A stretch of DNA of 43,137 nt from Klenkia soli (GTDB lineage: Bacteria > Actinomycetota > Actinomycetes > Mycobacteriales > Geodermatophilaceae): contig NZ_FNIR01000020.1 in NCBI RefSeq assembly GCF_900103975.1, positions 22,597-65,733 on the forward strand, read 5' to 3'. Shown in pieces: positions 15,562-27,613 of this stretch (positions are counted from its first letter, which is position 1; every line of letters begins with the position of its first letter). The position numbers were made by a program, and so were the translations under genes. A model generated the notes under the pieces. It was not told where the DNA came from. It made no database searches and was given only the letters and a program-made list of their open reading frames with translations.

Positions 15562-16011
15562 TCAGGAAGGAGCGAGCGCCGAGAGCGCCTTGCCGGCGTG
15601 CTTGGCGAAGGAGAACTCGCTCTTGATGACGTCGCGCACGACGCCGTCGGTGCCGATCACGATCGTGTGGCGCTTGGTCGGCGCCGCCTTCCAGCCGCGG
15701 TTGGTGCCGTAGGCCGTGCACACCGAGCCGTCGGCGTCCGAGAGCAGCGGGTAGTCGAACCCGTTGCCGTCGGCGAAGGCCTTCTGCTTGGCCACGGAGT
15801 CCTGGCTGATGCCGACCCGCTGGGCCCCGACCGCGGCGAACTGCGCCGCCTCGTCGCGCACCGTGCACATCTCGGTCGTGCACCCGCCGGAGCTGGCCAG
15901 CGGGTAGAAGAAGAGCACCACCGGGCCGCTCTGCAGCATCGTGGACAGCTTGCGGGGCGTGCCGTCCTGGTCCGGCAGCTCGAAATCGGGGGCGACGTCA
16001 CCGGTCTTCAT
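15562..16011 (-). CDS. bcp: Peroxiredoxin, PrxQ/BCP type
   Basis: A 149-residue thiol peroxidase that reduces hydrogen peroxide and alkyl hydroperoxides in the cytosol. The peroxidatic Cys44 and resolving Cys49 form the C-x4-C pair of PrxQ (SSGGCTTEMCTV), with APDFELPDQDG at the N-terminus. The usual TPGCT or TKGCT reads SGGCT here, so the Thr of the classical TxxC active-site motif is replaced by Ser41. The start is ATG 16011, preceded by AGGAG at 4 bases. It lies downstream of the secreted peptidase, separated by a 40-bp palindrome, so it is probably a separate transcript. Confidence 0.92.
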   Translation of the reverse strand: MKTGDVAPDFELPDQDGTPRKLSTMLQSGPVVLFFYPLASSGGCTTEMCTVRDEAAQFAAVGAQRVGISQDSVAKQKAFADGNGFDYPLLSDADGSVCTAYGTNRGWKAAPTKRHTIVIGTDGVVRDVIKSEFSFAKHAGKALSALAPS

Positions 16012-16035: not shown

Positions 16036-16075
16036 CGGGCGGTTCACCGTTCCACGTGGAACGGTGAACCGCCCG
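16036..16075. promoter_or_regulatory. parS-like core in a perfect 40-bp palindrome
   Basis: The centre (16049-16062) is GTTCCACGTGGAAC. It matches the general parS consensus GTTTCACGTGAAAC except for one symmetric base pair. The symmetry continues outward for 13 more bases on each side (CGGGCGGTTCACC and its complement) without a mismatch or loop. It starts 6 bases after the stop of the subtilase gene, so the transcript would form a 20-bp hairpin in terminator position. Confidence 0.65.
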
Positions 16076-16081
16076 TCGGTG

Positions 16082-17563
16082 TCAGTCGGCGAGCAGGGCC
16101 TGCACCGCGGCGACGACGTCGACCAGGCCGGTGCCCTTGTCGAACGACGTCGTGCGGTCGCCGACCGTCTGGTAGGCCGCACCGTCGGTGTACCGGTACG
16201 CGGTGCCCACCAGGGCGGCCTCGACCTCGGCCGGGGTGGCGGTCGGGTCGGCCTGGAACAGCTGGGCCACGATGCCGGCGATGTGCGGTGCGGCCATCGA
16301 CGTCCCGCTGATCGTGTTGAACGTGCCGACGTCCAGCGGTCCGGGGCCGTTCTGCGGCTGCAGGCCGGTCGCGCAGATCGGCAGGTACAGCCGGCAGGAC
16401 GACGTGATGTCCTCACCGGGCGCGGACAGATCCGGCCAGGTCGAGGCATCGGTGGACAGGCCCCGCGAGGAGTACTCGCTGACCGCGCCGTCCCGCGTTC
16501 CGGTGGCCTCGTCGTAGTACGACGCCACCGAGATGATCCCGCCGGTCGGGTCCTGGCCGGGCGGGTTGGTCAGCGACGCCGAGCCGTCGCCGCCGTCGTT
16601 GCCCGCGGCCCAGACCGTGACGACGCCCTCGTCGGCCAGCGCGCGCTGCAGCTTGACCGTCGCCGAGTTCGGGTCGAACGCGCCGCCGCCGGTCGGGCCG
16701 TAGGAGTTGTTGGTGACCTTGATCGGCGGGCACACGTCGGCGCTCACGCCCTCGCCGCACGGGTGGTCGTGGTTCTCCAGCACCCAGTTCAGCGCGGAGT
16801 CCGCGCCGACGATGAGGAGGACGGCGCCGGTCGAGATCGAGACCAGCGAGGCGCCCGGGGCGGCGCCCTGCAGCTGGGTGCCGTCGGTCAGCGTGGTGGG
16901 CCGGCCGGCGACGATGCCGTTGACGTGCGTGCCGTGCCCGCCGCCCGAGAGGGTGTCGGTGTCGACGATGGTCGGCACCGGGACCACGCAGTCGGTGGTG
17001 GTGGTCGACTCGTCGAGGCAGACGCTCTTCAGGCTGGCCACGACGGCGTCGGTGCCGTCGGCGTCCTGCAGGTAGGGGTGGGTCGGGTCGACACCGGAGT
17101 CGATGACGGCGACCGAGACGCCGCTGCCGTCCAGCGCCGGGCCGTTCGCGCCGGTCAGCGTGTCGACCGCCTCGGCGCCCCGGGTGGCCAGGTTCGACGT
17201 GGAGTCGGCGAAGGAGATCGGGGCGTTGCCCTCGAGGTAGGTGACCCCGGGCTCGCCGCGGGCCGCGGTGACCTGGTCGGCCGTGCCGCGGGCGACCACC
17301 ACGCCGATCTGCTCGAACTCGGTGGTGGTGCTCATCCCGGTCGCCGCCACGGCGGAGCGGGCGGCGGCGATGTCGGTGCCGTGCACCAGCACCGTGGTCG
17401 GGACCGCGGCGGACAGGGTGCCGAGCTGGTCGGCCAGGAACGCCTGGACGGGGGCGAGCGCGCTGGGTGCGGGTGCTGCGGTGGCCGGGGTGCTGGTGGC
17501 GACGACGCCGGCCACGAGGGCGGCACCCCCGACCAGTCCGACGGCTCGGCGGAACCTGTTCAC
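16082..17563 (-). CDS. Secreted subtilisin-like serine protease (S8)
   Basis: A 493-residue precursor. A signal peptide (FRRAVGLVGGAALVAGVVA, likely cleavage near ATAA-PAPS at about residue 30) is followed by a propeptide-like region of about 100 residues. The S8 catalytic domain has Asp155 in AVIDSGVDPTH, His210 in GHGTHVNGIVAG and Ser422 in SGTSMAAPHIAG; NNSYGP and WAAGNDGG carry the oxyanion-region asparagines. Several cysteines (181, 192, 269, 278, 390, 397) could form disulfides outside the cell. The start is GTG 17563, preceded by GAGGAG at 6 bases. No cell-wall anchor is seen, so it is probably a free extracellular protease. Confidence 0.92.
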   Translation of the reverse strand: MNRFRRAVGLVGGAALVAGVVATSTPATAAPAPSALAPVQAFLADQLGTLSAAVPTTVLVHGTDIAAARSAVAATGMSTTTEFEQIGVVVARGTADQVTAARGEPGVTYLEGNAPISFADSTSNLATRGAEAVDTLTGANGPALDGSGVSVAVIDSGVDPTHPYLQDADGTDAVVASLKSVCLDESTTTTDCVVPVPTIVDTDTLSGGGHGTHVNGIVAGRPTTLTDGTQLQGAAPGASLVSISTGAVLLIVGADSALNWVLENHDHPCGEGVSADVCPPIKVTNNSYGPTGGGAFDPNSATVKLQRALADEGVVTVWAAGNDGGDGSASLTNPPGQDPTGGIISVASYYDEATGTRDGAVSEYSSRGLSTDASTWPDLSAPGEDITSSCRLYLPICATGLQPQNGPGPLDVGTFNTISGTSMAAPHIAGIVAQLFQADPTATPAEVEAALVGTAYRYTDGAAYQTVGDRTTSFDKGTGLVDVVAAVQALLAD

Positions 17564-17723
17564 GTGGGTCTCCTCGACGGCGGGGCGCGACGACGGTGTC
17601 GCGCCGGCTGTGGATGCGCTGTGCCGGGTTGAACGAGCCGGCCCCCGGTCGGTTACCCGTGGACACAGGTACCGGCGTGTCGCCCGCGACCGGCCAGCCC
17701 GGGCACGCTGGGAGGATGACCGC

Positions 17724-18089
17724 GTGAGCACCCCCCTCGTGGCCCTGGCCAGCGCCGTGGCGCTGGTGGTCGCGGTGCTGGGCGGGCTGTCCACCGCGCT
17801 GCGCCGGCGCACCGGGCTGGCCCACCTGGTCGCGGCCGGCGTCCTCGAGGCGGTGCTGCTGGTCCAGTTCGGCCTGGTCGTCGTCGCCCTGGTCGGCGGG
17901 GAGCGCCCGCCCGAGACCGCGACCTTCCTCGCCTACCTGGTCAGCGTCGTCCTCGTGCCGGTCGCCGGGGTGCTCTGGTCGCGCACCGAGCCCACCCGGT
18001 GGGCCGGCACCGTGCTGGCGGTGGCGGCCCTCGTGGTGGCGGTCATGGTCTGGCGCCTGCTGCAGCTGTGGGAGGCCACCGGTGGCTGA
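17724..18089 (+). CDS. Small four-helix membrane protein, function unknown
   Basis: A 121-residue protein made almost entirely of four hydrophobic segments (about 5-24, 34-58, 68-88 and 94-116) with short charged loops (RRR at about 27-29). The start is GTG 17724 with GGGAGG about 8 bases upstream. It overlaps the next gene by 8 bases, so the two are co-translated and may form one membrane complex. I do not recognise a family with known function. Confidence 0.75.
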   Translation: MSTPLVALASAVALVVAVLGGLSTALRRRTGLAHLVAAGVLEAVLLVQFGLVVVALVGGERPPETATFLAYLVSVVLVPVAGVLWSRTEPTRWAGTVLAVAALVVAVMVWRLLQLWEATGG

Positions 18090-18555
18090 CCGGCTGGGTG
18101 CCCCCGCGGCGGGCGGCGACGACGCCGGCAGCACCGCGCGCGGGCCCGGCCGGGTGCTGGTCGCCCTCTACGGCGTCTTCGCGCTGGCCGCCGGCGCCCG
18201 GGCCGCCGTCCAGATCGCCGTCCAGTTCGACGAGGCCCCGGTCGCCTACCTGCTGTCGGCGTTCTCCGCCGTCGTCTACCTGGTCGCGACCATCGGGCTG
18301 GCCCGCGGCGGCCGGTCGGGGCGCCGCACCGCGGTGGTCGCCTGCGCGGTCGAGCTGGTCGGCGTCCTCGTCGTCGGCACCCTGTCGCTGGCCGACCGCG
18401 CCGCGTTCCCCGACTCGACCGTCTGGTCGGTGTACGGGCAGGGCTACGGCTTCATCCCCCTCGCGCTGCCCGTGCTGGGTCTGCTCTGGCTGCGCCACCT
18501 GGGCGACCTCGAGCGGGAGGGCGACCCCGACACCGACGGGACGACGGGCGGCTGA
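18082..18555 (+). CDS. Four-helix integral membrane protein, function unknown
   Basis: A 157-residue protein. A disordered, glycine- and alanine-rich N-terminus of about 20 residues precedes four predicted membrane helices. The last is in a stretch YGQGYGFIPLALPVLGLLWL that resembles conserved actinobacterial hypothetical membrane proteins. The C-terminal tail is acidic (DLEREGDPDTDG). The start is GTG 18082, with GGGAGG seven bases upstream inside the preceding gene. No function is assigned. Confidence 0.78.
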   Translation: MADRLGAPAAGGDDAGSTARGPGRVLVALYGVFALAAGARAAVQIAVQFDEAPVAYLLSAFSAVVYLVATIGLARGGRSGRRTAVVACAVELVGVLVVGTLSLADRAAFPDSTVWSVYGQGYGFIPLALPVLGLLWLRHLGDLEREGDPDTDGTTGG

Positions 18556-18612
18556 CCACCCCGGACGGGTGGTCCACGGATCGGGCCACCCGGGTCCGTC
18601 GTGCCCCACCGG

Positions 18613-18618
18613 TAGGCT
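18613..18618 (+). promoter_or_regulatory. Candidate -10 box for the LOV phosphatase, leaderless
   Basis: TAGGCT lies 6 bases before the GTG at 18625, the spacing expected if transcription starts on the start codon. The only Shine-Dalgarno candidate (GAGG) is 2 bases from the GTG, which is too close. No convincing -35 box is seen. Confidence 0.35.
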
Positions 18619-18624
18619 GAGGAC

Positions 18625-20949
18625 GTGTCGCAGGTCCCTGACGCCGCCGGGTCCGGCGCTGCCGACGTGCCGGCCGAGGCCGCCGCCCTGGTCTCCGGGG
18701 TGCCGGCCGACCGCGGCACCGACCACCGCACCGACCACCAGGCCGAGCACCAGGCCGACGCCGTCGGTGCCGCCTCCGCCGTCGTGTCGGGCACCGACCC
18801 GGCGGGCGCGCGGTCCGCGCTGCCCGGCGTGCTGGCCGACGTCCCGGTGGCCATCCTGGTCATCGACCGCACCGCGGGCACGGTGGTCTTCGCCAACACC
18901 GCCGCCGTCGACCTCGCCGGCAGCGTCCGGCTCCCGGTGCCCATCGACGAGTGGGGCGCCTCCGCCGGGCTCACCGACCTCTCCGGTGCCCCGCTGGCCA
19001 GCTCCACCAACCCGCTGTCCCAGGTCGCCGACGGCGCCCCGGTCTCGGGTGAGGCGGTCCGGCTGGCGCCCAGCGGCGCCGACGACGTGGGGCAGCCCCT
19101 CTGGGTCACCGGTTTCCCGCTGTCGCAGGACCCCGCGATCGACCAGCTGGCGCTGATCGTCTTCCTGCAGATCGACGCCGACCGCGGCGACCCCGAGAGC
19201 CGGCTGCAGGCGCTGCGCGACCGGGCCGTGCTGGCCACCGACATCTGCTTCACCATCACCGACCCCCGCCGCGAGGACCACCCGCTGGTCTGGGTCAACC
19301 CCTCGTTCACCCGGGTCACCGGCTACAGCGCCGAGGACTCCGTGGGGCGCAACTGCCGCTTCCTGCAGGGCCCGGCCACCGACCGGGCCACCGTGGCGCT
19401 CATCCGCTCGGCGCTCGCGGACCGCCGGCCGATCACCGAGACGCTGCTGAACTACCGCAAGGACGGCACCGCGTTCTGGAACCAGCTGTCGATCAGCCCG
19501 GTGTTCGACGGCGCCGGCGAGCTGGTCAGCTTCGTCGGCGTGCAGAGCGACGTCACCGAGCGGGTGCGGGCCGAGGGCGAGCGGGCGGCCGCCTTCGCCG
19601 CCGAGCAGGTCGCCCGCCGCGAGGCCGAGCTGGCCCAGGCGGTCGCCGAGCAGGCCCAGGCCGACGCCGAGCGCGCCCGCGAGGAGGCCGAGCTGGCCCA
19701 GAGCCGGCTGGCGCTCATGGCCGAGGCCACCAGCTCGCTCACGGCCACGCTGGACATGACCGAGCTGCTGGACCGCCTGGCCGCGCTGTGCGTCCCCCGG
19801 CTGGCCGACTGGATCTTCGTGACCGTGGTCGACGCGCACGGCGAGGTCGTGCGCACCGCTGCCCGGCACCGCGGCGGGCACGCCGAGGAGCTCGGCACGG
19901 TGAGCTCGCAGCACGCGATGCACCTGACCCCGGCGTCCCCGAGCCGGCGGGCCATGGAGACCCGGCAGCCGGTGCTGCTGCAGGGCCTGACCGACGCCCA
20001 GCTCGACGAGGTGTTCGCCCACCCCGCGGCCCGCGGCGCCTACGACCGGCTCGGCGGCCGGGAGGTCCTCGCGGTGCCGTTGATCGCCCGCCGCCGGGTG
20101 CTGGGCTCGATGGCCCTGGTCGCCATCGGCGCGGACAACGGGTTCGACGAGGACGACGTCGACCTGGTGCAGGACCTCGCGCGCCGCGCCGGCCTGGCGC
20201 TGGACAACGTGCGGCTCTACCAGGCCGAGCACCAGGTGGCCGAGACGCTGCAGCGCTCGCTGCTGCCGCAGCTGCCCGACATCCCCGGCGTCACCGCGGC
20301 CGCCCACTACGTGAGCGCCTCGACCGCCGCCGACGTCGGCGGCGACTTCTACGACCTGCTGCAGCTGCCCGACGGCGCGATCGGCGTGGCCATCGGCGAC
20401 GTCGTGGGCCACGACGTGGCGGCGGCCGCCGCGATGGGCCACCTGCGCGGGCTGCTGCGGGCCTGCATGTGGGACCCGACCGACCCCGACCCCGGCGCCG
20501 TGCTCGGCCGGGTGGACCGCCTGGTCCAGGGCCTGCACGTCGCGTCGATGGCCACCATGGCCTACGTGCGGGCCGTGCCCCCCGAGGGCGAGGGGCGCCC
20601 CTGGCAGCTGGTCGTGGCCAACGCCGGCCACCCGCCGCTGCTGCTGCGCCTCCCCGACGGCCAGGTGCAGGTGCTCACCGAGCCCACCGGGCTGCTGGTG
20701 GGGGTCGACGGCGACACCCGCCGCACGAGCGTGCACCTGGAGGTACCGGCCGGCACCACGCTGGTCGGCTACACCGACGGCCTGATCGAGCACCCCGGCG
20801 CCGACCTCGACGAGGGCATCGCCGCGCTGGTCCAGCGGCTGCGCGACGCCCCGGTCGACGCACCCCCCGCCGACCTGTGCACCCACGCGGTCGACACCGA
20901 CCTGGACCGCCGGGACGACGTCGCCCTCATCACCGTCCGCTTCGGCTGA
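18625..20949 (+). CDS. PAS-LOV-GAF-PP2C protein phosphatase, predicted blue-light sensor
   Basis: A soluble 774-residue signalling protein. After a disordered 60-residue start come a PAS-like domain (about 65-185) and a LOV domain (about 200-315). A coiled coil rich in Ala and Glu (about 316-365), a GAF domain (about 370-530) and a SpoIIE/RsbU-type PP2C domain (about 540-774) follow. The LOV core GRNCRFLQG holds the photo-adduct Cys244. The other flavin contacts are present: Asn243, Arg245, Gln248, Asn276 (LLNYRKDG), Asn286 (FWNQL) and Gln307 (GVQSDVT). The phosphatase metal ligands are present as Asp574 (VGGDFYD), Asp592 (IGDVVGHD), Asp718 (YTDGLIE) and Asp764/765. It should dephosphorylate an anti-sigma antagonist (STAS protein) under light or redox control. 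No partner gene is adjacent. Confidence 0.92.
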   Translation: MSQVPDAAGSGAADVPAEAAALVSGVPADRGTDHRTDHQAEHQADAVGAASAVVSGTDPAGARSALPGVLADVPVAILVIDRTAGTVVFANTAAVDLAGSVRLPVPIDEWGASAGLTDLSGAPLASSTNPLSQVADGAPVSGEAVRLAPSGADDVGQPLWVTGFPLSQDPAIDQLALIVFLQIDADRGDPESRLQALRDRAVLATDICFTITDPRREDHPLVWVNPSFTRVTGYSAEDSVGRNCRFLQGPATDRATVALIRSALADRRPITETLLNYRKDGTAFWNQLSISPVFDGAGELVSFVGVQSDVTERVRAEGERAAAFAAEQVARREAELAQAVAEQAQADAERAREEAELAQSRLALMAEATSSLTATLDMTELLDRLAALCVPRLADWIFVTVVDAHGEVVRTAARHRGGHAEELGTVSSQHAMHLTPASPSRRAMETRQPVLLQGLTDAQLDEVFAHPAARGAYDRLGGREVLAVPLIARRRVLGSMALVAIGADNGFDEDDVDLVQDLARRAGLALDNVRLYQAEHQVAETLQRSLLPQLPDIPGVTAAAHYVSASTAADVGGDFYDLLQLPDGAIGVAIGDVVGHDVAAAAAMGHLRGLLRACMWDPTDPDPGAVLGRVDRLVQGLHVASMATMAYVRAVPPEGEGRPWQLVVANAGHPPLLLRLPDGQVQVLTEPTGLLVGVDGDTRRTSVHLEVPAGTTLVGYTDGLIEHPGADLDEGIAALVQRLRDAPVDAPPADLCTHAVDTDLDRRDDVALITVRFG

Positions 20950-20960
20950 CCGAGCCGGCG

Positions 20961-21476
20961 TCAGGCGCCAGCGGGCGGGACGACCGCCGACTGCAGGCCG
21001 TAGGCGCCGCGGTGGAAGACCAGCGGGGTCTTCTCCGCCGTCGCGCCCAGGTCGAGCACCCGGCCGACGACGATCGTGTGGTCGCCGCCGTCGTGCTCGG
21101 CGTACAGCTCGCAGTCGATCCAGGCCACCACGCCCTCGAGCACCGGCGACCCGTGCGCGGACGGCGACCAGGAGACCCCGGCGTACTTGTCGGTGCCCGA
21201 GCGGGCGAACTGCGAGGAGAGCCCGTCCTGGTCGTCGGCCAGCACGTTCACGCAGAACCGGCCGATCTCGCGCAGCCGCGGCCAGGTGGTCGAGGTGCGG
21301 GCGGGGGCGAAGGCGACCAGCGGCGGCTCGAGCGACAACGAGCTGAACGACTGGCAGGTGAACCCGATCGGTCCGTCCTGCCCCTGGGCGGTCACCACCG
21401 TGATGCCCGAGGCGAAGTGGCCCAGCACGTCCCGCATGACGCGGGGGTCGACGATCTCCTGCGGCTGCTCGCTCAT
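20961..21476 (-). CDS. Flavin reductase domain protein
   Basis: A 171-residue protein of the HpaC/HsaB-like flavin reductase family, which supplies reduced FMN or FAD to a partner monooxygenase. Characteristic segments are VLGHFASGITVVTA near residue 17, GFTCQSFSSLSLEPPLVAFA near 38 and FCVNVLADDQ near 74, with HTIVVGRVLDL near 132 and FHRGAYG near 155. The start is ATG 21476, overlapping the stop of the lyase gene (ATGA), so it is coupled to it. No monooxygenase is in the window, so its partner is unknown; a steroid or aromatic pathway is possible but unsupported. Confidence 0.87.
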   Translation of the reverse strand: MSEQPQEIVDPRVMRDVLGHFASGITVVTAQGQDGPIGFTCQSFSSLSLEPPLVAFAPARTSTTWPRLREIGRFCVNVLADDQDGLSSQFARSGTDKYAGVSWSPSAHGSPVLEGVVAWIDCELYAEHDGGDHTIVVGRVLDLGATAEKTPLVFHRGAYGLQSAVVPPAGA

Positions 21477-22411
21477 GCCGGCTGGAACGCCCCGCGCGGC
21501 GCGTTCTTCCCACCTGCCCGGTACAACGACGAGGGCAGCGGCCGCCCGACGGACCGCTCCGTCACCGCAGCGGCGGCCAGGACGGCGTCCAGGTCGATGC
21601 CGGTGGCCACCCCGGAGTCGGTGAGCCAGTAGACGAGCTCCTCGGTGGCGATGTTGCCGCTGGCGCCGGGGGCGAACGGGCAGCCGCCCAGGCCGCCGAC
21701 CGAGGAGTCGAGCTGGGTGACCCCGGCCTGGACCGCGGCCAGCGCGTTGGCCTGGCCGGTGCCGCGGGTGTCGTGGAAGTGCGCGCCCAGCGGGACACCG
21801 GGGGAGACCCGGCGCACCTCGTCGAGCAACCGGACCACCCGCAGCGGGGTCGTCGTCCCGATGGTGTCGCCCAGGCAGAGGGCGTCGGCGCCGGCGGTGA
21901 CCGCGGCCCGGGTGACGTCGACCGTGCGGTCGACCGCGGTGCGGCCGTCGAAGGGGCAGTCCCACGCCGTCGCCACGATCACCTCCAGCGATCCGCCGGC
22001 GCCGTGGGCGAGCGCCGCGATGTCGGCCACCGCGGCGACCGCCTCGGACGTCGACCGGCCGGCGTTGGCCCGGGAGTGCGAGTCGGCCGCGCTGACCACG
22101 TACTCGAGGTCGGCGATGCCGGCGTCGACCGCGCGCTGCGCCCCGCGCAGGTTCGCGACCAGCGCCGAGAACCGCACCCCGGTGAACCGGTGCAGCTCCG
22201 CGGCCACCTGGTCGGCGTCGGCCAGGGCCGGCACCGCCTTCGGCGAGACGAACGAGGTGACCTCGATGCGCTGCACCCCGGTGGCGACCAGGGCCTCGAG
22301 CATCGCCAGCTTGCCCGCCAGCGGCACCGGCTCCTCGAGCTGCAGGCCGTCGCGCATGCCCACTTCGCGGACGTCGACGGCGGGGGGCAGGACCAGGTCG
22401 AAGTCGTTCAC
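21473..22411 (-). CDS. Hydroxymethylglutaryl-CoA lyase family protein
   Basis: A 312-residue TIM-barrel enzyme of the HMGL-like family. The catalytic motif REVGMRDGLQLE provides Arg20 and Asp21. The metal-binding histidines lie in GAHFHDTRG (His211, His213). The flexible catalytic loop GLGGCPFAPGASGN holds Cys244. These match HMG-CoA lyases of leucine breakdown, which split HMG-CoA into acetyl-CoA and acetoacetate. GLQLE replaces the usual GLQNE, so a related acyl-CoA substrate is possible. The start GTG 22411 overlaps the upstream stop by 4 bases; the longer open frame upstream is a shadow. No acyl-CoA carboxylase genes accompany it. Confidence 0.87.
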   Translation of the reverse strand: MNDFDLVLPPAVDVREVGMRDGLQLEEPVPLAGKLAMLEALVATGVQRIEVTSFVSPKAVPALADADQVAAELHRFTGVRFSALVANLRGAQRAVDAGIADLEYVVSAADSHSRANAGRSTSEAVAAVADIAALAHGAGGSLEVIVATAWDCPFDGRTAVDRTVDVTRAAVTAGADALCLGDTIGTTTPLRVVRLLDEVRRVSPGVPLGAHFHDTRGTGQANALAAVQAGVTQLDSSVGGLGGCPFAPGASGNIATEELVYWLTDSGVATGIDLDAVLAAAAVTERSVGRPLPSSLYRAGGKNAPRGAFQPA

Positions 22412-22848
22412 GCCCCGATCATGCCCCCGCCGTCTCGGTCGCGGGGAGCGGCGGTGATGTTGAACATCCAGGGGGTGCCGAACCGGTCGACCATGGCGCC
22501 GTACTCGTCGCCCCACATCTGCACGGCCAGCGGCATCTGCACCTCGGCGCCCTCGGCGAGCGCCGCCCACCAGCCGCGCAGCTTCTCGGTGTCGGTGCCG
22601 CTGATGCACACCGTCGTCCCCGCGGCCTTCTCGAAGCCCATGCCCGGGCCGGTGTCCGAGCCCATGAGCAGGATGCCGTCGGGGGTGTCGAGCTGGCTGT
22701 GCATGATCCGGTCGGCGTCGGGGCCGTCCATGCCGAACTCGGCGAAGGTGTTGACCGTCAGCTCGCCGCCGAGCACGCGCTGGTAGGTCTCCATGGCCTC
22801 GCGGGCGGTGCCGTCGAAGCTCAGGTAGGGGCACAGGTTCGCAGTCAT
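22408..22848 (-). CDS. PhnB-like VOC-superfamily protein
   Basis: A 146-residue glyoxalase/bleomycin-resistance fold protein of the PhnB-like group. It begins with CPYLSFDGTAREAMETYQRVLGG and carries GMGFEKAAGTTVCISG, WWAALAEGAEVQMPL and WGDEYGAMVDRFGTPWMFN. This family (3-demethylubiquinone methyltransferase-like in many databases) mostly lacks a proven function. The start is placed at ATG 22848, because the conserved PYLSFDG follows it. An ATG at 22881, which overlaps the upstream stop (ATGA) and adds 11 residues, is also possible. Confidence 0.82.
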   Translation of the reverse strand: MTANLCPYLSFDGTAREAMETYQRVLGGELTVNTFAEFGMDGPDADRIMHSQLDTPDGILLMGSDTGPGMGFEKAAGTTVCISGTDTEKLRGWWAALAEGAEVQMPLAVQMWGDEYGAMVDRFGTPWMFNITAAPRDRDGGGMIGA

Positions 22849-22877
22849 GCCGTGAGGACGTCGACCGGGCGCAGAAC

Positions 22878-23624
22878 TCATCGGCCGCCGAGGAACGAGC
22901 CCAGCGCGCCGCCGAGACCGCCCTCGCCGGACTGCTGACCCGACCCCTGCCCGCTGATCGCGCTGACCGGCGGCTCCTCGGAGGCCTGGACGACGACGAA
23001 CCCCTGACCCGAGAACGAGAGGGTGAACCGCTCGCCGGTGGTGCGCCCGATGAGGGTGCCCAGGCCGAAGGAGTCGTTGGACTGCAGCCCGGTCTGCAGG
23101 GACGACGACCACGCGACGGCCGCCTGCGGGTCGGCGAACGTGGGCTGGTTGACCGCCAGCACGACCGGCTGGCCCTTCGTGGTGATCGCGATCCGGCCCA
23201 CCCCGGTGAAGACGCAGTTGAACAGCCCGGCGTTGCTGCCCATGCCGGCGCCGGAGACGCGGCGGATGTCGTAGGACAGCGTGGGGTCGAAGGCCAGCAC
23301 GTTGGCGCCGTTGATGGTCAGCCCGTCGGAGCCGTCGAGGTCGATGATGTGGACGTCCTGCGCGGCGTCGGCCAGGAACAGGTCGCCCTGCCCGCGCACC
23401 TTCATCAGCGGTACGCCCTCGCCGGTGAGCTTCTGCTTGAGGAACCCGCCGATGCCGCCGGAGCCCATGGCGTCGAAGGTCAGGTTGCCCTGGTAGGCCA
23501 CCATCGAGCCGGCCCGGGCGAACACCTCGCCGTTCAGCCCGACCCGGCACATCTTGCCGCCCTGCTTCTGGATCCCGGCCGCCTGGCTCTCGGCGAACTC
23601 GGGGGCGAACAACTCGCTGCGCAT
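22878..23624 (-). CDS. AIM24 family protein
   Basis: A 248-residue protein of the AIM24 (formerly DUF124) family, a beta-rich fold found in bacteria and mitochondria with no settled biochemical role. Visible landmarks are GSMVAYQGNLTFDAMGSGGIGGFLKQKLTGE (residues about 40-70), FLADAAQDVHIIDLDG, and FNCVFTGVGRIAITTKGQPV. A glycine- and serine-rich tail (SGQGSGQQSGEGGLGGALGS) replaces a folded end. The start is ATG 23624, with GGAGGAG seven bases upstream. It is the first gene of a tight four-gene minus-strand cluster ending in the flavin reductase. Confidence 0.85.
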   Translation of the reverse strand: MRSELFAPEFAESQAAGIQKQGGKMCRVGLNGEVFARAGSMVAYQGNLTFDAMGSGGIGGFLKQKLTGEGVPLMKVRGQGDLFLADAAQDVHIIDLDGSDGLTINGANVLAFDPTLSYDIRRVSGAGMGSNAGLFNCVFTGVGRIAITTKGQPVVLAVNQPTFADPQAAVAWSSSLQTGLQSNDSFGLGTLIGRTTGERFTLSFSGQGFVVVQASEEPPVSAISGQGSGQQSGEGGLGGALGSFLGGR

Positions 23625-23688
23625 CCTCGGTCTCCTCCGTGGTGGTCCCCGTGGCACGGCCATCCTGCCGGGGCCCCGGCCCGGTGGC

Positions 23689-23694
23689 TACGGT
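23689..23694 (+). promoter_or_regulatory. -10 box for the epimerase gene, leaderless
   Basis: TACGGT lies exactly 6 bases before the ATG at 23701, the same box and spacing as before the dioxygenase gene at 1643. There is no Shine-Dalgarno sequence. Confidence 0.45.
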
Positions 23695-23700
23695 CGGGCG

Positions 23701-24912
23701 ATGACCTCCCCGGAGACCCCCGAGCTGGACCGGCTGCTGACCACCGCCGCGGCCGCCGCCGACCCGGCCGGCGGGTTCGGCTGGCTGGACGAGCACGGGC
23801 AGCGGACGCCGGGGAAGGTCCCCGAGACCTGGGTCGTCGCCCGGATGACCCACGTCTTCGGCCTGGCCGCCGCGTGGGGCCGACCGGGCGCCGCCGAGCT
23901 GGCCGAGCACGGCCGGCAGGCCCTGGTCGGCATGCTGCGGGACGACGAGCACGGCGGGTGGTGGTCCGACGCCCACCGGACCGGGCCCAAGCAGGCCTAC
24001 GTGCACGCCTTCGTCGTCCTCGCCGGCGCCACCCTCACCCGGGTCGGCCTGCCCGGGGGTCCCGAGCTGCTGGCCGATGCGCTGCAGGTCTGGGACGAGC
24101 ACTTCTGGGACGACGACGCCGGGGCCGCCGTCGAGGAGTGGGACGCCGCGTGGACCACGTGCTCGGACTACCGCGGCGCCAACGCCAACATGCACGGCGT
24201 CGAGGCCCAGCTGGCCGCCGCCGACGCCCTGGCCTCGCGGGGGGACGACGCCCGCGCCGCGCAGCTGCGGGACCGCAGCCGGCGCATCACCGAGCGGCTG
24301 GTCGGCGAGGCCCGCGACCGCGACTGGCGGCTCCCCGAGCACTACGACCCCGCCTGGACGGCGCTGCCGGAGTTCAACCGGGATGCTCCGGCCGACCCGT
24401 TCCGGCCCTACGGGGTGACCGTCGGGCACCAGTTCGAGTGGGCGCGGTTGATCGCCCACCTGGGCACCGTCGTCGACCTCGAGCCGTGGCTGCTCGACGC
24501 CTCGACGCAGCTGTACCGGGTGGCCGTGCAGCGCGGCGGGGCACCCGACGGCCAGCCCGGGTTCGTCTACACCCTGGACTGGGCCGACCGCCCCGTCGTC
24601 ACCGCCCGCATGCACTGGGTCATGGCCGAGGCGCTGGCCGCGGCCGCCGTGCTGGGTGCGGTCACCGGCGAGGCCGGGTACCGCGCCGACCACGAGCACT
24701 GGTCGAACCTGGTCGAGCTGCTGGTGCTGGACACCCGCACGGGCAACTGGCACCACGAGCTCACGCCCGAGGGCCAGGTCGGGCACACCACCTGGACCGG
24801 CCAGCCCGACGCCTACCACGTCGCGCAGGCCCTGCTGCTGCCCCGGCTGCCGGTCACCAGCTCCGTCGCCGAGTCCGTCGTGCGGGCAGCGGGCGTCAAC
24901 CCAGCGCGGTGA
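23701..24912 (+). CDS. N-acylglucosamine 2-epimerase (AGE) family sugar isomerase
   Basis: A 403-residue (alpha/alpha)6-barrel protein. Conserved AGE/YihS features are TWVVARMTHVFGLA near residue 43 (Arg48), GANANMHGVEAQLAAADAL near 159 (His165), VGHQFEWARLI near 241 (His243, Glu246), RMHWVMAEAL near 303 and NWHHELTPEG near 349. These histidines correspond by motif to the acid/base residues of YihS-type aldose-ketose isomerases. Candidate reactions are mannose-fructose, sulfoquinovose or N-acylglucosamine isomerisation; the sequence does not decide. The start is ATG 23701 after a -10 box at leaderless spacing; the frame is open upstream but unlike the family. Its 3' end overlaps the convergent beta-lactamase gene by 17 bases. 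Confidence 0.87.
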   Translation: MTSPETPELDRLLTTAAAAADPAGGFGWLDEHGQRTPGKVPETWVVARMTHVFGLAAAWGRPGAAELAEHGRQALVGMLRDDEHGGWWSDAHRTGPKQAYVHAFVVLAGATLTRVGLPGGPELLADALQVWDEHFWDDDAGAAVEEWDAAWTTCSDYRGANANMHGVEAQLAAADALASRGDDARAAQLRDRSRRITERLVGEARDRDWRLPEHYDPAWTALPEFNRDAPADPFRPYGVTVGHQFEWARLIAHLGTVVDLEPWLLDASTQLYRVAVQRGGAPDGQPGFVYTLDWADRPVVTARMHWVMAEALAAAAVLGAVTGEAGYRADHEHWSNLVELLVLDTRTGNWHHELTPEGQVGHTTWTGQPDAYHVAQALLLPRLPVTSSVAESVVRAAGVNPAR

Positions 24913-25828
24913 GCACGGCCGCAGCGGTGCGGGCGACGACCGCGTCCTCGTAGGCGGCCGTCGGGTCGAGCTCCTCGGTGAGCACGGTGACCAGGACCGG
25001 GTCGCGCCCGGGTGGGGTGACCACCGCGATGTCGTTGCGGATGCCGCCGGCGCCCCCGGACTTGTCGGCGACGACCCAGCCCGCGGGCGCACCGGCCCGC
25101 ACCAGCGTGTCGCCGGTGGCGTTGCCGCTCATCCAGGACAGCAGCGTGGACCGGTCCGCGTCGGTCAGTGCGCCCGGTGCCAGCAGGGCGCGCAGCCCGT
25201 CGGTGAAGGCCGCGGGGGTGGTGGTGTCGGCGGTGCTCGTGGCCGGGTCGACGTCGTTCAGCGCCGGCTCCTCGTGCACCACGTCGGTGGTGGTGTCGCC
25301 GAGGTCGGCGAGGGCGGCGTCCAGCCCGGCCGGTCCACCGAGGAGGTCGAGGACCAGGTTCAGCGCCAGGTTGTCGCTCTGCCGCACCGCCGCCTCGGCC
25401 AGCTCCGCCGCGGTCAGCCCGGTCGCGACGGCCGCGCCCGTCACCGGGGCGTAGCCGGCCGCGTCGACGTCGGTCTGGCTCCAGGTGACGAGCCGCGCAC
25501 GGTCGGCGGAGGGCACCTCGCGCAGGAAGACGCCCGCGGCGAAGGCCTTCAGGGTCGAGGCGTAGCCGAACCGCTCGTCGGCGCGGTGCTCGACCCGGGT
25601 GCCGGTGCCGGTGTCCACGGCGGACACCCCGATGCGCACGTCGTACTCCTGCTCGAGGGCGGCGAGCTCGGCCGACACGTCCACCGTGGCCGCCGTCGTG
25701 GAGGACGGGGCCGTCGCCGAGGACGACGACGACGTGCCCTCGGCCGGGGTCGAGGAGGTGCACCCGGCCAGGACCAGCGCACCCAGGACGGCGACCGCGA
25801 CCCGCAGCCGCAGCCGCACCGGCGTCAC
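24896..25828 (-). CDS. bla: Class A beta-lactamase, lipoprotein
   Basis: A 310-residue protein with a signal sequence and lipobox LVLAGC (lipidated Cys23), then a Ser/Thr-rich linker (about 24-50) and a serine beta-lactamase domain. All class A motifs are present: Ser91-T-L-Lys94 (YASTLKA), Ser151-D-N153 (QSDNLAL), the omega-loop Glu187-P-A-L-Asn191 and Lys256-S-G258 (VADKSGG). The omega-loop glutamate distinguishes it from penicillin-binding proteins. It should hydrolyse penicillins outside the membrane. The start GTG 25828 overlaps the stop of the M20 peptidase by 4 bases; GTG three codons later is possible. No BlaR/BlaI regulator is adjacent, so it looks chromosomal and constitutive, not mobile. 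Confidence 0.9.
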   Translation of the reverse strand: MTPVRLRLRVAVAVLGALVLAGCTSSTPAEGTSSSSSATAPSSTTAATVDVSAELAALEQEYDVRIGVSAVDTGTGTRVEHRADERFGYASTLKAFAAGVFLREVPSADRARLVTWSQTDVDAAGYAPVTGAAVATGLTAAELAEAAVRQSDNLALNLVLDLLGGPAGLDAALADLGDTTTDVVHEEPALNDVDPATSTADTTTPAAFTDGLRALLAPGALTDADRSTLLSWMSGNATGDTLVRAGAPAGWVVADKSGGAGGIRNDIAVVTPPGRDPVLVTVLTEELDPTAAYEDAVVARTAAAVLTALG

Positions 25829-26904
25829 CGGCCCCACCGGTCGACCACCTCGCCGAACACCTGCACGGCGTGGGTGAGCTCGGCGACCTCCACGTACTCG
25901 TCGCGGGCGTGCATCACCGCGGGGGTGCCCGGGCCCCACACCACGATCGGGGCGCCGTCGGCCAGCGGCCCGAGCACCGAGCCGTCGGTGAAGTAGGTGG
26001 CCGGCTCGGGCCGGACCACGGCGGGCAGGCCGCGCACCCACGGGTCGTCGCCCGGCGTCAGCAGCGGCGGCAGGTCCACCCGGACCTCGACCTCGGCGAC
26101 CTCCGGCTGCGCGCGCCACCAGGCCTGCAGAGCGGCGCCGTCGCGCACGGTGCGCATGTCGACGACGACCTCGGCGGTGTCGGGGACGACGTTGGGCACG
26201 GTGCCGCCGCTGATCACCCCCGGGTTCCAGGTCTCGGCGCCCAGGAACTCCTCGTGCGCCAACGGCAGCTCCACCCCGGCCCGGGCCAGCACGGCGACCA
26301 GGTCCAGCACCGCGTTGTGCCCGAGGTGCGGGGTGCTGCCGTGCGCCGCCCGCCCCGCGGCCCGGACGGCGAGCCACAGCGCACCCCGGTGCCCGAGCAC
26401 CACCTCGTTGCCGGTGGCCTCCGGGACCACGACCGCCCCCGTGCGCGTGCCCGCCAGCGCCCGCGCCGCGACCTGGGCGCCGGTCGAGCCGATCTCCTCG
26501 TCGCTGGTCAGCAGCAACCCGACCGGGGTGTCCGGGTCGGCGGCGGCGAGCGCGGCGACGGCGGCCACGAGCCCGGCCTTCATGTCCGAGCCGCCGCGGC
26601 CCCAGACCCGGCCGTCCTCGTGGTCGGCGCCGAACGGGTCGCGCTGCCAGGCCCGGGCGTCGGCGGCCGGGACGGTGTCGACGTGGCACGCGAATACCAG
26701 CCGGGGCCGCTCCGGGTCGGTGGGCGTGGTGAGGAGGCACCAGGGCTGGTCGGCGTCCTCGCCGGCCCGGCGCTGCAGGTGCGGCGCCTGCCCGGTGAGC
26801 ACCTCGGTGACCACGCCCATCACGTCCCGCTGGGGGCGGGGGTCGCCCGAGACGGTGGGACGGCGGACCAGCTCGCGCACGAGCTCGACGGGATCGAGGG
26901 CCAT
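25825..26904 (-). CDS. M20 family metallopeptidase / deacylase (ArgE-DapE-CPG2 type)
   Basis: A 359-residue zinc hydrolase. Metal and catalytic motifs are FACHVDTVPA near residue 71, GRGGSDMKAGL near 101, the general base pair in SDEEIGSTGA near 133 and GHRGALWLAV near 168, where the lid domain starts. A C-terminal HARDEYVEV supplies the last metal-binding histidine. Members cleave acyl or peptide bonds of acetylornithine, succinyl-diaminopimelate or dipeptides. The true DapE (dapE) is possible, but no lysine or arginine genes are near. The start is ATG 26904; a GTG immediately upstream at 26907 is equally readable. It is coupled to the beta-lactamase behind it. Confidence 0.85.
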   Translation of the reverse strand: MALDPVELVRELVRRPTVSGDPRPQRDVMGVVTEVLTGQAPHLQRRAGEDADQPWCLLTTPTDPERPRLVFACHVDTVPAADARAWQRDPFGADHEDGRVWGRGGSDMKAGLVAAVAALAAADPDTPVGLLLTSDEEIGSTGAQVAARALAGTRTGAVVVPEATGNEVVLGHRGALWLAVRAAGRAAHGSTPHLGHNAVLDLVAVLARAGVELPLAHEEFLGAETWNPGVISGGTVPNVVPDTAEVVVDMRTVRDGAALQAWWRAQPEVAEVEVRVDLPPLLTPGDDPWVRGLPAVVRPEPATYFTDGSVLGPLADGAPIVVWGPGTPAVMHARDEYVEVAELTHAVQVFGEVVDRWGR

Positions 26905-26910
26905 CACCCC

Positions 26911-26942
26911 ACCCTGCCGGTTCCACGTGGAACCGGCAGGGT
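26911..26942. promoter_or_regulatory. parS-like core in a perfect 32-bp palindrome
   Basis: The same 14-bp core GTTCCACGTGGAAC (26920-26933) is extended by a further perfectly symmetric arm of 9 bases (ACCCTGCCG) on each side. The arm sequence is unrelated to that of the palindrome at 16036. The last base is part of the stop codon of the proline-rich membrane protein gene, so on the minus strand it is in terminator position. It lies 7 bases before the M20 start. Confidence 0.65.
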
Positions 26943-27613
26943 CACCAGCCGGACGGGGCCTGCGGCGGGGGCGTGACCTGCGGGGAGGTGGTGCCCCGGA
27001 CGTGCTCGACCCAGCCGCCGACCGCCGGGAGCCCGGCCAGCACCGCCGCCACGACCGGCACGGGGAGCAGGAGGACGACCAGGAACGCCTGGCCGAACGC
27101 CGACCCGTACGACGTGGCCGCGCTGACCACCGCCTGGGTCAGCACCGCGACGCCGAGGGCCGCACCGCCGCCGACCACGAACCAGCGGTCTGCGCCGGCC
27201 AGCAGCCGGGTGCCGCCGACGATCAGGGCCACCCCGGCCGGGAGCCCGACGACCACGCCCAGCCAGGTCCCGGTGCCGCCGTCGGACCCGGCGAGCAGCA
27301 CGATGCCGACCAGCCCCCACAGCAGGGCCATCCCGCCGGCGATGAAGCCCAGCACGGCGGCCGCCCCGGCCTGCTGCGGCCGACCGGGCCCGCGCGGCCA
27401 GGGCGCCGGCGGCGGGGTCGGCGGGGTCCACCAGCCCGGCTGGGCCCCCCACGGCTGCTGCGCCGCGGGGTAGGGCGCGGGGCCCCACGGACCGGGCAGC
27501 GGGGCCGCCGCCGGGTAGGGCCGGGGCGGTGCGGGTTGCGAGGGCGGCGGACCGCCGTACCCCTCGGACCCGCTCGCCGCCCAGCCCTGCCCGCCGTCCC
27601 CTGGTCCGCTCAC
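26942..27613 (-). CDS. Proline-rich membrane protein, function unknown
   Basis: A 223-residue protein. About 80 N-terminal residues are cytosolic, disordered and rich in Pro, Gly, Ala and Trp (PGPWGPAPYPAAQQPWG). Membrane segments follow at about 84-108, 116-135, 143-165 and 172-197, with a short hydrophilic tail ending PPPQAPSGW. This layout is common in actinobacterial DUF4190-like proteins of unknown role. The start is GTG 27613. The stop coincides with the edge of a 32-bp palindrome. Confidence 0.75.
   Translation of the reverse strand: MSGPGDGGQGWAASGSEGYGGPPPSQPAPPRPYPAAAPLPGPWGPAPYPAAQQPWGAQPGWWTPPTPPPAPWPRGPGRPQQAGAAAVLGFIAGGMALLWGLVGIVLLAGSDGGTGTWLGVVVGLPAGVALIVGGTRLLAGADRWFVVGGGAALGVAVLTQAVVSAATSYGSAFGQAFLVVLLLPVPVVAAVLAGLPAVGGWVEHVRGTTSPQVTPPPQAPSGW

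Follow-up and report, generated by a model that had tools for sequence, protein, structure and literature searches.

Why should a site of the kind bound by a chromosome segregation protein lie at the exact centre of a perfect inverted repeat beside the end of a gene? The question is raised by a stretch of 43,137 nucleotides (nt) from the actinobacterium Klenkia soli of the family Geodermatophilaceae (the window; C25:22597-65733 of a 4.76-Mb genome assembled in 25 contigs), in which the 14-mer GTTCCACGTGGAAC occurs twice without mismatch, at 16049-16062 (site 1) and 26920-26933 (site 2). Each copy forms the exact centre of a perfect palindrome, of 40 bp at site 1 (16036-16075, half-arm 20) and 32 bp at site 2 (26911-26942, half-arm 16), and the arm sequences of the two sites are unrelated; in all of this the initial annotation of this DNA was exact. 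A parS core at the tip of a hairpin seems to be a recurrent arrangement and not a coincidence, because it is found again in relatives, with arms of other sequences. The explanation that we favour, as rather probable, is that the arms are produced by template switching around a fixed parS and are retained at gene ends as terminator-like hairpins.

The segregation protein ParB is loaded at parS sites. That the two cores are chromosomal parS sites is well supported by their sequence and place, as the initial annotation had proposed. A search of the whole genome finds 15 copies of GTTCCACGTGGAAC, which are not scattered over the chromosome but confined to contigs C18, C19 and C25, and a reversed control pattern has no match in the genome. 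With a single variant, GTTTCACGTGGAAC, at a distance of 36 bp from the C19:184038 copy, the total is 16 sites, of which nine are inside genes. This pair on C19 is directly upstream of parA, which is followed by parB, and is about 4 kb from dnaA. We have therefore several copies clustered near oriC and parAB, as chromosomal parS sites should be. The contig of the window and that of dnaA are unjoined in the K. soli assembly, and distance from the origin was taken from relatives. In G006 the parA-upstream pair is separated from the orthologues of sites 1 and 2 by about 66 and 58 kb, and in G005, a single contig of 4,594,226 bp, the orthologue of site 2 is about 62 kb from it; the 12 parS sites of the latter genome fall within 436 kb, which has a probability of 7e-11 under uniform placement. 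The origin-proximal position that had been suggested for the sites is thus supported by way of the relatives. parS positions are conserved in relatives, and GTTYCACGTGRAAC matches in 59 of the 60 genomes examined (K. soli included). Chromosomal parS sites of ParABS systems are mainly TGTTNCACGTGAAACA, according to PMC7022226. The K. soli core differs from this by one symmetric base pair, and in most genera of the family the predominant form is this variant. This departure from the usual consensus is what might be said for the 14-mers being some other palindromic motif or chance occurrences; set against the clustering with its empty control, the parA-parB and dnaA genes beside a pair, the matches across genomes and the conserved positions, that view is scarcely credible.

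Some further observations concern the parS complement itself. At 1484-1497 of the window there is a near-parS sequence, GATCCACGTGGAAC, with one mismatch, among 12 one-mismatch sites on contigs C16, C18, C19 and C25. In all 28 genomes of the family survey described below, the position that groups with the parA-upstream pair has two adjacent parS sites (e.g. L170 and L177). The cluster of G005 (C1:1708064-2144189) is lopsided about that pair, with seven sites on one side extending to about 352 kb and three on the other extending to about 84 kb. Eight small-genome metagenome-assembled genomes (MAGs) placed in the family (L035-L042) have one or two GTTTCACGTGAAAC sites each, where other genera examined have 7-16, mostly GTTCCACGTGGAAC; both the sequence and the number of parS sites have shifted within the family. 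Upstream of the peroxiredoxin gene in G002, G003 and G007 (L277, L278 and L280) parS survives as a remnant altered at one or two positions where other species have it intact, and parS sites are apparently both lost and gained among Klenkia species.

How common are the long arms? We surveyed 294 parS sites in 28 genomes of the family, K. soli included and the eight MAGs kept apart, with G025 contributing seven of its eight sites; 270 have symmetric cores. A long arm was defined as a perfect extension of at least 6 bp per arm beyond the core, and the null distribution came from 1000 shuffles of the right arms, which ignore the relatedness of sites, orthologous ones not being independent. Long arms are found at 18 of the 270 symmetric sites, in 15 of the 28 genomes, where the shuffles average 1.7 and never exceed 8, so that the earlier judgement of more than chance stands. 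They fall into seven groups among the groups listed by our own clustering, in which several positions were merged into one large group of orthologous sites. Their distribution is uneven. Between genes, excluding the parA-upstream pair, 17 of 107 sites have long arms (null 0.6, maximum 4), but inside genes there is just one in 127 (null 2.5). There are none at the 32 symmetric sites of the parA-upstream pair in the 28 genomes, and none at four sites overlapping gene edges. A distant genus, probably Streptomyces, repeats the pattern in three genomes with 21-26 sites each: 11 of 63 symmetric sites have long arms (null 0.6, maximum 4), with half-arms of up to 26 bp.

Chance was rejected both by these shuffles and by short palindromic cores used as controls. 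When the cores are intergenic palindromes of 6 and 8 nt, extension by at least 4 bp per arm is seen at 37 of 2759 and 18 of 851, respectively, compared with 22 of 107 for parS. Similarly, perfect palindromes of any sequence with a half-arm of at least 7 reach 11 in 13 of 412 cases, compared with 26 of 270 for parS (p = 0.0006).

A parS site can do without arms, since only two of the 16 sites in K. soli carry them, and the proposal that they are a parS requirement was rejected on the strength of the remaining 14. Among the 15 copies of the 14-mer, the 13 other than those in the window lack long arms. An extended parS consensus with fixed flanking bases was rejected too, no arm sequence being common between sites. 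The same data bear on a function at the level of DNA, whereby symmetric arms would aid ParB loading, clamp closure or cruciform formation. Perfect symmetry of both strands, centred on a ParB site and free of G-U pairs, would suit such a role. Yet 252 of the 270 sites manage without arms of at least 6 bp, those that exist are unrelated from site to site, and the parA-upstream pair has none, making the idea very improbable.

What the arms are made of is best seen at the two sites of the window, whose features are as follows.

15562-16011, minus strand: peroxiredoxin gene (AhpC-TSA, by Pfam), downstream of site 1.
16036-16048, minus strand: apparently conserved arm of site 1, on the peroxiredoxin side, with TGAACCG.
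16036-16075, no strand: perfect 40-bp palindrome of site 1; the minus-strand RNA is predicted to form a hairpin with an ACGU loop.
16049-16062, no strand: putative parS core of site 1, an exact match, among the 15 copies on three contigs with parAB and dnaA.
16063-16075, minus strand: apparently derived arm of site 1, on the subtilase side, with the 7-mer CGGTTCA.
16082-17563, minus strand: subtilase gene (Peptidase_S8), upstream of site 1; start uncertain, the frame being open to 17812.
25825-26904, minus strand: M20-family peptidase gene (by Pfam), downstream of site 2.
26911-26919, minus strand: apparently conserved arm of site 2; it overlaps the M20 gene leader, and GGCAGGGTGGG is at 26908-26918.
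26911-26942, no strand: perfect 32-bp palindrome of site 2, with a predicted RNA fold and covariation in eight genomes.
26920-26933, no strand: putative parS core of site 2, an exact match.
26934-26942, minus strand: apparently derived arm of site 2, ACCCTGCC, sharing one base with the stop codon.
26942-27613, minus strand: membrane-protein-like gene, upstream of site 2, with two candidate starts (27355 and 27613) and no Pfam family.

The arms turn over while their pairing is maintained. When site 2 is compared in eight Klenkia genomes the five core pairs are invariant, and each of the five arm pairs differs on both sides in one genome or more, with no one-sided change; only 2 of 80 cells are unpaired. 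One convergent gap in three Streptomyces-like genomes (G073:C1:4462858, G089:C3:184797 and G102:C1:4875999) tells the same story. Its arms of 11, 18 and 8 bp are each perfect yet largely different, and in the alignment 8 of 16 pairs have changed on both sides and none on one.

At both sites of the window the arm facing the downstream gene appears to be conserved and the other to be derived. GGCAGGGTGGG is present upstream of the M20 gene in seven of the eight Klenkia genomes, including G004 and G005 where it lies outside the hairpin and other sequences serve as arms. Its complement ACCCTGCC is found only in G000 and G007. At site 1, TGAACCG is on the downstream side in six of ten relatives, three of them without an intact parS, and CGGTTCA is absent from the 80 nt upstream of the peroxiredoxin start in all ten. 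Only TGAACCG was counted, because GAACCG overlaps parS itself in G006 and G008. The relative closest by its peroxiredoxin (97%) is G006, where CGGGCG lies directly against parS; the K. soli arm reads CGGGCG and then GTTCACC, the latter copying the flank opposite. It is this pattern, of a conserved arm facing an apparently derived one and of exclusively two-sided change, that leads us to template switching, whose product it would fit. The initial annotation had not considered template switching around a fixed palindrome, which could be the source of the arms.

The TGAACCG element deserves a separate remark. It is near the -35 position of the peroxiredoxin gene (16036-16048; L276-L285) in K. soli and the six relatives, and is perhaps a promoter or operator element.

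The arms might be nothing more than a mutational by-product, with template switching extending them wherever the sequence is free and the hairpin being functionless. Much of the evidence is equally at home there: the near absence of arms inside genes, the 29 of 33 parS stems without a mismatch, the conserved and derived arms, the two-sided changes and the frequency with which other intergenic palindromes are long (see below). But such a process would not readily explain why the arms concentrate in convergent gaps in one genus, nor why all three orthologous sites of the gap aligned above remain long-armed despite turnover. Nor does it predict their absence from the parA-upstream pair, which is also intergenic, though promoter constraint could explain this. 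We regard it as a rather improbable account.

How, then, do the hairpins relate to the ends of genes? The palindrome of site 1 starts 6 bp past the minus-strand stop codon (16084-16082) of the subtilase gene, whose product is 90% identical to that of K. brasiliensis and 89% to that of K. taihuensis in the best segments, and the palindrome of site 2, in a gap of 37 bp, overlaps the stop codon at 26944-26942 by one base. A stable hairpin just downstream of a gene, as in an intrinsic terminator, is predicted at both, with folding energies including flanks of -40.5 kcal/mol (z -5.07) at site 1 and -31.1 kcal/mol (z -4.97) at site 2. More widely, genes were called with a simple script of our own and the classes of gap are approximate. 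Tandem gaps contain most of the long arms in the family (14 of 18), and the distance to a stop codon is often no more than about 20 bp. In the Streptomyces-like genus perfect long arms are found at 10 of 28 sites in convergent gaps, compared with one of 35 elsewhere (p = 0.0015); an eleventh convergent site scoring at least 6, G089:C3:306967, is an artefact of neighbouring parS copies and only the 10 perfect ones were used. Imperfect stems are rarer among the parS-centred hairpins than among the other hairpins at gene ends (4 of 33 as against 20 of 63, p = 0.047). A separate hairpin of 13-15 bp belongs to the subtilase gene in G001, G002 and G003, and K. soli has the parS hairpin in its place. 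Replacement of terminators by parS hairpins was also considered across the data, and is a trend only. We infer that a role at 3′ ends is likely for these hairpins overall. It is less certain for site 2, where an arm overlaps the leader of the next gene.

The convergent gaps hold two further arrangements. In each of three Streptomyces-like genomes, such a gap has a pair of long parS-centred palindromes 45-57 bp apart (L360:14586/14631, L354:1554/1611 and L367:16398/16454). At L044:1501 and L139:1522, near-perfect parS-centred palindromes enter the 3′ ends of convergent genes, the arms including the stop codons.

The initial annotation took the palindromes for plain dual-purpose terminators. On that account selection on an RNA hairpin, working through compensatory point mutations, would have made the arms, and parS would happen to form the loop and upper stem. 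Its supports are the placement at gene ends, with 10 of the 11 perfect long arms of the Streptomyces-like genus between convergent genes; the likeness to strict hairpins without parS, all 63 of which are in tandem or convergent gaps, with a loop of four as the commonest (26 of 63); and the parS hairpin standing in for that of the subtilase gene. The account meets difficulty in that neither alignment contains a one-sided (G-U) pair change. Moreover, under looser criteria hairpins without parS occur in divergent gaps as well, the figures being 7 of 93 for the family and 1 of 15 for the Streptomyces-like genus, and the window sites depart from the expected form of a terminator in ways given below. 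We think that selection on terminators of this plain kind is unlikely to be the whole explanation, if still to be taken seriously. As to the putative dual role in itself, the genomic context supports it, most clearly at the convergent pairs of the distant genus.

Several results weigh against the combination of template switching and retention at 3′ ends. Firstly, the terminator position described in the initial annotation is only half right. The stop codons adjoin, but a start codon in the same direction follows closely, 24 nt past the palindrome of site 1 (peroxiredoxin) and 6 nt past that of site 2 (M20). Site 2 is an odd place for a terminator, since hairpins are rare in short tandem gaps without parS (3 of 125 below 60 bp). 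There is no U-rich tract after the hairpin at either site of the window, the minus-strand flanks being GGGCCCCCCGGAAC and GGGGTGATGG. Secondly, a G-U signature of selection on RNA was not found; the first mismatches on the sense strand are G-U in eight cases and C-A in seven. This does not decide the matter because ordinary gene-end hairpins show little of it too, the G-U and C-A types together making up 3 of 11 tandem mismatches. Thirdly, two comparisons of context fall short. Long parS arms occur at 28 of 134 sites in gene-end gaps and 2 of 31 in divergent gaps (p = 0.07), where the G028 site was classed as divergent despite an adjacent subtilase stop codon and its reclassing gives p = 0.018. 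Of the gaps where parS is long-armed, 2 of 27 also contain a separate hairpin; where it is short-armed the figure is 18 of 80 (p = 0.09).

Fourthly, parS may not be special in this respect. When intergenic palindromes of 14 bp without parS are taken as the control, 10 of 37 reach 22 bp compared with 22 of 107 for parS (p = 0.49). This control does not favour parS, and long arms may therefore be a general trait of palindromes in intergenic gaps. The control palindromes were chosen for being palindromic and the parS cores were not chosen for extension, so that we still read the parS result as real while allowing that the process may be general. Lastly, in 35 loci from other Actinomycetes, of which L317-L335 may include more of the same genera, just 1 of 47 sites has long arms, and none of 15 does in the small-genome MAGs. 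Taken with their frequency in the family and in the Streptomyces-like genus, the long arms are recurrent in two families and are not universal.

Template-switch (quasipalindrome) mutations are known to create and maintain hairpins, as set out in PMC8794818, PMC6357072 and PMC7202029. Template switching at quasi-palindromes is described for RNA stems in the first of these, and stimulation of template switching by protein-DNA crosslinks is reported in the second. The scheme that we favour would run as follows. ParB would hold the 14-bp palindrome constant, while one non-coding flank would occasionally be copied, reverse-complemented, to the other side by template switching at the quasi-palindrome during replication, generating perfect arms whose sequence varies by species. 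Inside genes the coding sequence would forbid such copying. Beside gene ends the arms would be kept more often, the hairpin probably acting as, or replacing, a terminator-like hairpin, and one stretch of DNA would then serve both as a centromere site and as a structure at the 3′ end of an RNA. That ParB itself stimulates template switching is speculation. The boldest form of the scheme, which we consider possible but doubtful, is that ParB-bound parS would be at once a replication obstacle and a fixed pivot, so that actinobacterial centromere sites would keep generating hairpin terminators with renewed arms while ParB pins the tip. If the scheme is correct, these loci are a natural record of the birth and replacement of perfect stems, in which the turnover of arms can be read around a protein-pinned tip in many species, and some centromere sites of bacteria form part of the ends of transcription units, linking ParB loading to transcription. 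In the literature on parS and ParB with terminators or palindromes, and on template switching, in which few subscription journals were covered, we found no parS at the tip of a terminator-like hairpin.

Comparison with known systems places the elements between three of them. Like the products of template-switch mutation, they have perfect stems and concerted changes of several bases, as reverse-complement copying would give. They differ in being centred many times over on one conserved protein-binding palindrome, and the copying here is deduced from sequence. With intrinsic terminators they share a strong G+C-rich hairpin just past a stop codon, like the other gene-end hairpins of these genomes; they differ in the missing U-tract, in the next start codon that follows 24 or 6 nt on at the window sites, and in a loop and upper stem that appear to be parS, a protein-binding DNA site. 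Finally, they resemble the parS sites of ParABS systems in core sequence, in palindromy, in having several copies near the origin and in the pair beside parAB, and are set apart by the symmetric G-C pair within the half-site and by the long perfect arms, of sequence peculiar to each site, that some of them carry.

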